Of a stretch of DNA of 34,316 bases, positions 27,481-30,235 are shown piece after piece. The DNA comes from Fimbriiglobus sp. GTDB lineage: Bacteria > Planctomycetota > Planctomycetia > Gemmatales > Gemmataceae. The translations under genes were made by a program, and so were the position numbers. The notes under the pieces were generated by a model. The model was given only the letters and a program-made list of their open reading frames with translations, did not search any database and was not told where the DNA came from. Where the stretch lies: assembly GCA_025351325.1 (NCBI GenBank), contig JANXWE010000196.1:1-34316 (forward strand), read 5' to 3'. Every line of letters starts with the position of its first letter. Position 1 is the first letter of the stretch.

Positions 27481-28425
27481 ATGAAACTCTTGCTCGGCTG
27501 GACTGCAATTCTGATCGGGGTTCTGTGGTTCTTCACATCTGCGACGCCGAGCAATCGCACGATCCAACGGCCCGTTTCGACTCGGGATCAACGCCCGCCC
27601 CGCGCCGTAGGGATGCCGGGCGAAACCGGGTTGCTGCTGGAACCGCCGGTCGATCTGTCCCGATTCAGCCGGGACGACTTTCTGAAATTCAGTGCGACCG
27701 TGGGCCGCGATAAGATCGGCAAAGGGTGGACGTCGGGTGTCACCGCCCTCGCCCCGCACGCCCGTGCGGATGTCTGCGGACTCACCGAACCCGAAGTGAA
27801 AGAGTACATGCTGCGCGTGCGGGATCTGTTCGACCGCGGCGACTCGGTGCCCGTGTCCGATGTCGGCCTCATCAGCACCCAGGAAGACGTCATCCGCAAA
27901 CCGATGTTCAACCACGTCGCCGCGTTCTCGAATTCCACGGTGAACGTTTATCTGCTCGTCCAGACCATCATCGGCAACGGAGGTTGGTCGTATTTCTCGA
28001 TCGTGCAAGACCGTACCACGGAGCCGCCGTTGAATTACTTCGCCGAGATTCAAGGCAAAAACATTAAGTTCGAAGCCAAGAGTTGCTACCAATGCCACTC
28101 GTCCGGAGCACTCGCGATCCACCCCGTGCGAGCGGATCTCGTGAGCGATGCCCGACTGATGCAGGTCGTCAATCGCCACATCGCCGACCAACCCGTATCT
28201 CGTATGTTCTTTCCGAAGAACGATCCCCCTAAAGAATACGGACAACCGCTCGGGTTGAAAGCCTGCGCGAAGTGCCACCAAGACGACGGGGAACGGGCTC
28301 CGTTGTTCCAGGCTCACTCCCACTCCATCCGCGTGCTTGTCGATTTCGGATATATGCCTCCGAAACGCGAATTGGACGCGGGGGAACTCGCGGAACTCAA
28401 GACGTGGCTGAACCGGAAACCTTGA
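27481..28425 (+). CDS. Dihaem cytochrome c-like periplasmic protein
   Basis: A 314-residue exported protein. The ATG at 27481 begins directly before a hydrophobic signal or anchor (MKLLLGWTAILIGVLWFFTS); an upstream in-frame start would add only eight residues. Two c-type haem attachment motifs are present: CYQCH (202-206) and CAKCH (262-266). The second is followed by QDDGERAPLF and a late VDFGYMPPKRELDAGELAELKTWL stretch, in which the Met in GYMPP is the usual distal haem ligand of class I cytochromes. The first 190 residues are not recognised. It resembles cytochromes with planctomycete-type PSCyt modules, but I cannot assign the exact family. The SDR gene follows 23 bases later. Confidence 0.8.
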   Translation: MKLLLGWTAILIGVLWFFTSATPSNRTIQRPVSTRDQRPPRAVGMPGETGLLLEPPVDLSRFSRDDFLKFSATVGRDKIGKGWTSGVTALAPHARADVCGLTEPEVKEYMLRVRDLFDRGDSVPVSDVGLISTQEDVIRKPMFNHVAAFSNSTVNVYLLVQTIIGNGGWSYFSIVQDRTTEPPLNYFAEIQGKNIKFEAKSCYQCHSSGALAIHPVRADLVSDARLMQVVNRHIADQPVSRMFFPKNDPPKEYGQPLGLKACAKCHQDDGERAPLFQAHSHSIRVLVDFGYMPPKRELDAGELAELKTWLNRKP

Positions 28426-28448
28426 ATCCTCCCCACTCGGGTTGCCCC

Positions 28449-29204
<756 letters not shown>

Positions 29205-29278
29205 TACTCGATGGTGGAAGGGGTGAGCAAAATGTTTCTGGCAGGCCGAGACATGTTGAACTACCGGCATTTTGTGAT

Positions 29279-29429
29279 TTGTTGGAGTTCAACATTTAGG
29301 TTGCAACACCTTGGCCGCAGAGTGTCGATCATTTAGGTCGGGCCGAGTCGGCGAAGCCCGACCCTCGTCGACGTCGGAACCTCGAAGACTCGTTCCGACT
29401 AGGACAACCTAAAGGTTGAACTCCAACAA
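29279..29429. repeat. 151-bp element with 25-bp terminal inverted repeats
   Basis: The ends 29279-29303 and 29405-29429 are inverted copies matching at 24 of 25 bases. Inside are two perfect 8-bp stems: GGTCGGGC (29336-29343) with GCCCGACC (29356-29363), and GTCGGAAC (29373-29380) with GTTCCGAC (29392-29399). The right end also holds CAACCTAAAGGTTG, self-pairing around AA. There is no open reading frame inside. It fills most of the 254-base gap between the SDR and methyltransferase genes (29205-29458), whose remaining parts hold nothing I can name. It looks like a non-autonomous mobile element or a structured RNA; no target duplication was identified. Confidence 0.8.
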
Positions 29430-29458: not shown

Positions 29459-30235
29459 ATGGTCATGACGCCCGCGACACGCGACCGGATTCAATCCGAG
29501 CAACACTTCCACGACCGGCAGGCGGCGGAGCGTGGCGAGAGCTTCCGCGTGGGTCGGGCCGAGCTGCGCTTCGACGACGACCTGTTCCTGAACCACGAGA
29601 CGTGGATCCGGCCGGCGTTCGCGCAGCTCGGTGACGTTCGCGGCAAAGCCATCCTCGACTACGGCTGCGGACACGGCATGGCGGCGGTGGTGCTCGCCCG
29701 CGCCGGTGCCCGTGTCAGCGCGTTGGACCTATCCCCTGGTTACATTGCCGAAGCCGGCGAGCGGGCCGCAGCCAACGGGGTAACGATCGATTTCCGGGTC
29801 GCCGATGCGGAGCAGTTGCCCTACGCCGATGGCAGTTTCGATGCCGTGTGGGGCAATGCGATTCTGCACCACCTCGATTTGAACCGGGCCGGTGCCGAGT
29901 TACAGCGCGTGCTGAAACCCGGCGGCGTCGCGATCTTTTGCGAACCGTGGGGCGGCAACCCGCTCTTGAGTTTCGCCCGGCGTCGGCTGCCTTACCCGGG
30001 TAAAGAACGCACGCCCGACGAGCGGCCGCTTACCCGGGGCGATCTGGCTCCGCTGCGTGCGCACTTCCCAAAACTCCGCTGGAGTGGCCACCAACTGTTC
30101 GGCATGATCCGCCGGGTCGTGAAGTCGCGTTGGCTTTTGGTACCGGCCGATTTCGCGGATCGAGTCGCATTCACGGTCTGTCCGCCGCTGGAAAATCTCG
30201 GACGGTATGTGGTGCTCGTTCTGCCGAAGGTGTAA
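29459..30235 (+). CDS. SAM-dependent methyltransferase (Methyltransf_11 type)
   Basis: A 258-residue cytosolic class I methyltransferase. Motif I ILDYGCGHGMAAVVLARAGA (about 62-81), the acidic loop ending strand 2 (VSALDLSP), DAEQLPYADGSFDAVWGNA and ILHHLDL are typical of the UbiE/Methyltransf_11 family, and LKPGGVAIFCEPWGG is the post-motif strand. After the core come about 90 residues with basic helices (SFARRRLPYPGKERTP), which may determine the acceptor. The substrate is unknown; neither quinone nor lipid synthesis genes are adjacent. The start is at 29459 (GTC-ATG could also start at 29465). It is preceded by the 151-bp element and followed after 11 bases by the HhH gene. Confidence 0.88.
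   Translation: MVMTPATRDRIQSEQHFHDRQAAERGESFRVGRAELRFDDDLFLNHETWIRPAFAQLGDVRGKAILDYGCGHGMAAVVLARAGARVSALDLSPGYIAEAGERAAANGVTIDFRVADAEQLPYADGSFDAVWGNAILHHLDLNRAGAELQRVLKPGGVAIFCEPWGGNPLLSFARRRLPYPGKERTPDERPLTRGDLAPLRAHFPKLRWSGHQLFGMIRRVVKSRWLLVPADFADRVAFTVCPPLENLGRYVVLVLPKV

Follow-up and report, generated by a model that had tools for sequence, protein, structure and literature searches.

A repeated 151-bp element of a Fimbriiglobus genome is very probably a REPIN, with ends like those that flank divergent RAYT genes in other bacteria

In the relevant passages of PMC3116915, the REPINs of Pseudomonas fluorescens SBW25 are described as inverted REP doublets with a spacer, which are extragenic, lie near RAYT genes and also occur in tandem clusters and as singlets, the latter being read as decay. 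According to sections of PMC3116915 and PMC8266576, the RAYT of a studied REPtron binds to a single REP, folded in single-stranded DNA, and transfers the strand after cutting next to that REP; as presented there, REP cutting has so far been studied with gammaproteobacterial RAYTs. The corresponding section of PMC8266576 gives a recognition rule for the Marinomonas sp. MWYL1 REPtron (Mb): a tetranucleotide located 2 nt from a 5-bp stem and a TTTA loop in which just the third base is free. In the same source, a change to GTTG abolished cutting by the RAYT of S. maltophilia. GTAG REP families and tyrosine transposases flanked by terminal inverted repeats were reported by Di Nocera et al. 2013 (PMC3733652), who also describe REPs from R. 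baltica and O. terrae.

The element analysed here lies in a stretch of 34,316 nt (the window), which is contig C244 of a genome of 5.09 Mb (382 contigs, 96% complete) grouped with the genus Fimbriiglobus (Planctomycetota, Gemmataceae). We consider it very probable that this element is a REPIN, i.e. a non-autonomous mobile unit made of two inverted REP hairpins and a spacer. It is repeated in its genome, its copies are mostly extragenic and lack target duplications, its end hairpins show covariation and similar ends flank RAYT genes in relatives. The features of the locus are as follows.

28272–29204, + strand: upstream ORF of the short-chain dehydrogenase/reductase type (named by eye from the sequence), outside the element
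29279–29429, no strand assigned: the whole element, a probable REPIN (two REP hairpins in inverted orientation and the spacer between them), of which the genome contains many copies, 12 of them full-length and aligned
29281–29303, + strand: left REP, with foot GTTGGAGTT, GGAG at 29284–29287, stem 29290–29294 with 29299–29303 and loop 29295–29298 (TTTA)
29336–29363, no strand assigned: inner hairpin 1, a perfect 8-bp stem (29336–29343 with 29356–29363) with a 12-nt gap, common to full-length copies
29373–29399, no strand assigned: inner hairpin 2, a perfect 8-bp stem (29373–29380 with 29392–29399) with an 11-nt gap, adjoining the right REP
29405–29427, − strand: right REP, exactly GTTGGAGTTCAACCTTTAGGTTG on this strand, with intact stem and loop TTTA
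29459–30235, + strand: downstream ORF of the class I methyltransferase type (name from the original prediction, motif by eye), outside the element

The original prediction had described a gene-free element with 25-bp terminal inverted repeats and two perfect 8-bp stems inside, and this anatomy was borne out. The arms (29279–29303 and 29405–29429, 25 nt each, 101 nt apart) are complementary at 24 of 25 positions (96%), the inner stems lie where they had been placed, and the element sits between an ORF that stops at 29204 and the methyltransferase ORF, ending 30 nt ahead of the start codon of the latter. The end conserved across copies can be refined to 23 nt (29281–29303 and 29405–29427), the two outermost bases being variable. 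Each REP end consists of the foot GTTGGAGTT followed by a 5-bp stem enclosing a TTNA loop. The sole arm mismatch is base 29294, which is A here and C in most copies; the same base breaks the inner stem pair (29294/29299) of the left REP in the window copy. The predicted single-strand folds reach −69.7 kcal/mol for the + strand (z = −6.5) and −77.2 kcal/mol for the − strand (z = −8.5); in neither case did any of 200 dinucleotide shuffles fold equally well. No Rfam family was found at the element. The single Rfam match in the whole window lies elsewhere (Acido-Lenti-1 RNA, RF01687; 33123–33168 on the − strand, 38.3 bits for a gathering score of 37).

Searches of the own genome returned 57 match rows for a 251-nt query (self and cross-arm matches included) and 35 for the bare 151-nt element. 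With up to three mismatches, the 25-nt end occurred 48 times, versus 2 for a reversed control pattern; counted by eye, these ends form 13 inward pairs and 1 outward pair and leave 20 single. The genome search proposed in the original prediction, for which finding no other copies was to be the adverse outcome, yielded dozens of them, ends and whole-length copies alike. Twelve full-length copies (that of the window included) aligned with a mean column identity of 88%. A loose typing pattern, allowing up to 9 errors, assigned 53 ends as 35 right and 18 left; most one-ended copies preserve the right end together with inner hairpin 2, which is retained with some compensating changes. Among 30 copies placed with a gene call based on a crude home-made codon score, 24 have a called gene on either side, 2 fall inside a called ORF and the other 4 stand at contig edges. 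The 24 intergenic gaps are codirectional in 10 cases, divergent in 8 and convergent in 6, and the strand of the element is not constant.

The checks for target duplications and empty sites gave negative answers. Direct repeats around the 12 copies averaged 2.42 nt, as against 2.37 nt for re-paired flanks, i.e. there is no target duplication. A query made of the joined flanks matched nothing spanning the join and revealed neither an empty site nor an intact longer unit. The orthologous gene pair (82% and 81% identity) in the congener G002 (contig C570; Fimbriiglobus sp. 339R_metabat_14 MAG) encloses a longer, unalignable gap without the element, which shows that the element is absent there but does not amount to a clean empty site; two further congeners, G001 and G003, have matches to both flanking genes, on separate contigs. 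No excision or insertion event was seen by orthology or with joined flanks. The left flank of the window element (29221–29293) resembles a site in another contig of the same genome (L076, G000:C263:3461-3537; 78% over 77 nt), where just a stump of the left end is present.

In other genomes, the foot and the loop are constant and the stem pairs are swapped in a compensating fashion. The partner end often carries a different stem, for example CACGC/GCGTG or CAAGC/GCTTG, which is still self-complementary. Over 53 distinct 23-mers, selected on the foot alone, 70 of the 106 cells for the two inner stem pairs were Watson–Crick (mean 36.2 and maximum 50 in 1000 shuffles). The loci were partly fetched by patterns fixing the TTNA loop and the outer stem bases, so that their loop counts are biased; one fetch (the exact 23-nt end) fixed the variable pairs too, and the covariation rests on variants outside that class. 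A fairer loop count comes from RAYT loci that were collected through their protein or through a neighbouring Y1 hit, where 31 of 33 full-stem REPs have TTNA and 2 have TGAA. Since the stem pairs covary within each end, the two ends fold independently, and the long stem is incidental: it arises in the window element because both of its ends bear the same stem variant. Covariation, whose absence had been named as the other adverse outcome, is therefore present in the hairpin of each end, whereas none was found in the long stem. Terminal repeats that pair into a long perfect stem should therefore be interpreted with caution, since such pairing can follow from the similarity of two end hairpins. 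As for the hallmarks of REPs, the foot and the self-complementary stem are constant over genomes and the tetranucleotide is conserved, but as GGAG (or GTTG) and not as GTAG.

General Y1 transposases were considered as partners and rejected: among 30 Y1 loci in 14 genomes, a true copy was found near just one (L155), around whose Y1 gene different repeats were seen by eye, 27 were without any end motif (≤1 mismatch in 11 bases) and 2 had chance-like matches without a hairpin. The own genome has three Y1 genes (L087, L088 and L089), none of them with element ends nearby. Around L089, YRTDG.RQSARL-like peptide stretches recur in the ORFs (by eye), possibly a sign of a further repeat family near the Y1 genes of this genome.

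The partner is probably just a divergent Y1 group below the Pfam cut-off. In genome G667, two Y1-like genes scoring below it each lie between inverted pairs of the same ends. Both match the NCBIfam family REP_Tyr_transpos slightly below its cut-off, and the only PDB sequence match of the one that was searched (L255) is TnpArep (4er8). With a profile built from this pair, full-length relatives were found in G599, G564, G676, Stieleria (G041), G045 and the congeners G001 and G003, so that the hosts of this clade comprise Verrucomicrobiota, Stieleria and congeners of the window genome. All nine further members tested match REP_Tyr_transpos, two of them above the cut-off, and NHYH was recognized by eye as the enzyme motif. 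The foot GT[TA]GG[AT]GT.C occurs within 165 bp on both sides of 9 of 11 clade RAYT genes. The complete arrangement (GG[AT]G, 2 nt, 5-bp stem and TTNA) is present on both sides of 7 of the 11, versus 0 with shuffled flanks; in the remainder the stem is longer or bulged (3 cases) or lacking (1 case), and none of five outgroup RAYTs has it. One clade gene lacking the standard foot (L282) is surrounded by different repeats, yet shows GGAG, 2 nt, stem and TTNA on both sides. The second clade RAYT of Stieleria (L281, G041:C167) is flanked by several copies of a different repeat, CTGGTGTGGAGGATTCATCCGAC, without the GGAG-stem-TTNA arrangement; this repeat is apparently a sister family of REPs that has another foot. 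The five outgroup RAYTs have GTAG-type repeats (by eye) and are set apart from the clade with a support of 100/100 in a tree of 16 rows (one of them, L298, a partial sequence), in which 7 of 13 inner forks are open.

In congener G002, a copy of the subtype of the window is directly followed by the first ~43 residues of a clade RAYT, the gene being broken thereafter. In the 382 contigs of the own genome no clear clade RAYT was detected (best profile match 21.6 bits, partial), nor were convincing RAYT remnants seen around its copies. These copies look orphaned, unless the RAYT gene lies in an assembly gap.

Among 41 neighbourhood genomes, matches to the element were confined to its own and three others (15 rows in G002, 2 in G003 and 1 in G018). 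Among named bacterial genomes, exact matches to the 23-nt end were located in 63 stretches, from Stieleria tagensis, Fimbriiglobus, other Planctomycetota, many Verrucomicrobiota MAGs and one Sumerlaeaceae MAG. When the two inner stem pairs were left open, a scan of 392 Planctomycetota genomes hit the own genome 38 times and G155 twice, and 6 of 288 genomes of Verrucomicrobiota (the phylum of a Pedosphaera MAG) had hits (G564, 162; G676, 53; G047, 36; G493, 16; G599, 4; G667, 4); the reversed control pattern gave 0 in each genome listed. In Stieleria the units form tandem arrays with a spacing of ~94 bp. At one Stieleria tagensis locus (L143, 6601–7000), five units ~94 bp apart stand in a direct row right after a coding region, the REP alternating with a partner REP whose foot is changed (CTCTGGCGG side).

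By analogy with the studied REPtrons (PMC3116915, PMC8266576, in the parts devoted to cutting), the family most likely moves as follows. In single-stranded DNA, a hairpin of 5 bp and a TTNA loop would form next to the conserved foot GTTGGAGTT of each end, the guide tetranucleotide probably being the GGAG inside it, 2 nt from the stem. A clade RAYT would bind the REP hairpin once the strand is exposed, its tyrosine would cut adjacent to the hairpin, and the unit would be joined elsewhere without duplication of the target. That RAYT activity spread the copies of the own genome, that it acted on single strands and where it would cut are points that we infer. Under the guide rule of PMC8266576, cuts would be expected at CT for a GGAG foot and at CA for the GGTG foot of L280. 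In this genome the family now looks inactive or orphaned, because there is no clear clade RAYT, the copies have drifted and many are one-ended. The lack of such a gene there and of a clean empty site speaks against the REPIN reading, as do the shared flanks of some copies, which are longer than a plain REPIN would carry, and a foot that is not GTAG, though GGAG may be the true guide.

Three other explanations were weighed. In a classical MITE, the deletion derivative of an IS, a DDE transposase would act on double-stranded DNA at the 25-bp terminal inverted repeats. The long, near-perfect repeats, the many copies and the absence of a gene agree with such an origin; yet we regard it as very unlikely, since the copies lack target duplications, the two ends differ in stem in relatives while each stays self-complementary, the variable loop bases of the left and right ends are complementary in just 5 of 11 cases (12-copy alignment, by eye) and the ends of relatives are borne by Y1/RAYT genes rather than DDE genes. 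The suggestion in the original prediction of a MITE-type element moved by a transposase elsewhere holds in substance, given the many copies and the matching transposase type in relatives, but differs in detail: the enzyme is REP-associated HUH/Y1, there is no target duplication and the unit is a pair of inverted REP hairpins. The alternative offered there, an RNA structure preceding the methyltransferase gene, found no support. A cis-acting leader, attenuator or terminator of this gene or of its neighbours would fit the strong fold predicted on either strand and the nearby start codon; the gaps of every orientation occupied by the copies, with no constant strand (n = 30, crude gene call), the lack of an Rfam family and the G002 gene pair without the element make it extremely improbable. 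The element is repeated, and its copies lie mostly between genes, show no target duplication and keep to no particular neighbouring gene or strand; it is therefore mobile DNA and not the leader of the methyltransferase mRNA. It may still affect mRNA secondarily, which REPs are known to do.

Somewhat less remote, but still unlikely, is a longer mobile unit with the REPIN as its core plus 20–60 nt per side. Several copies have TTCTGGAATTT at the left and GAAAATAAGACATCACTGAA at the right (by eye), the left flank of the window element has its match in C263, and 5 right and 1 left flank pairs were similar at E < 0.01, versus 0 in 5 shuffles of the right flanks (one right pair, with L018, extends into a neighbouring REP and may not count). 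Against this, the flanks of most copies are unrelated right up to the foot, and the joined-flank query, as stated above, gave no intact longer unit. An integron attC site, considered by eye only, was dropped.

Beyond the REPIN reading, we tentatively propose, as a possibility that may well prove wrong, that clade RAYTs read a code made of GG[A/T]G, 2 nt, a 5-bp stem and TTNA, with two stem pairs free to co-change, that this recognition is ancient or convergent, and that right-end singlets reflect one-sided copying and not just decay. The code spans Planctomycetota and Verrucomicrobiota, and such ends also occur in a Sumerlaeaceae MAG. Because it matches the loop rule of a Marinomonas RAYT from another subclass, hairpin recognition would be either ancient or converged.

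An anonymous 151-bp palindrome thereby becomes a member of a traceable mobile family. The 11 RAYTs with adjoining repeats, natural compensating stem variation and a nearly fixed TTNA loop provide enzyme–substrate pairs with which REP recognition by RAYTs becomes testable in other phyla. The kind of element (REP, REPIN, RAYT) is already known; the family itself we judge to be new. Literature searches on REPIN/RAYT in Planctomycetes or Verrucomicrobia, on the foot sequence and on Fimbriiglobus repeats and transposases retrieved no description of it in titles, beginnings of abstracts or passages; for the foot sequence no title among the matches listed concerned REPs, and for Fimbriiglobus with repeat and transposase there was none.

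The comparison with known systems is drawn from the pertinent parts of each source. Like the REPs of Di Nocera et al. 2013 (PMC3733652), those studied here occur in Planctomycetota and Verrucomicrobiota, are single or dimeric and flank tyrosine transposase genes. The tags named in that text are GYAG, GYRG, GTRG, GTMG and GTGG, and not GGAG or GTTG; this distinction is made without its consensus figures, and one of its families is possibly identical with the present one. The REPINs and RAYTs of SBW25 (PMC3116915) share with our family the inverted doublets with spacer, the extragenic location, the coexistence of singlets and doublets, the tandem clusters and the RAYT neighbourhood. Unlike in SBW25, the REP sequence and foot are different here, the spacer contains inner hairpins, right-end singlets are in excess and the own genome is without a clear partner gene. 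With Mb (PMC8266576) the family has in common the 5-bp stem 2 nt from the tetranucleotide and the TTNA loop in which the third base alone is free, here by natural variation. The tetranucleotide is GTAG in Mb and GGAG here, and the enzymes differ in class, Mb being of group 3 whereas the clade RAYTs have NHYH as in subclass 2.8 of PMC6006769 (an assignment made by eye).
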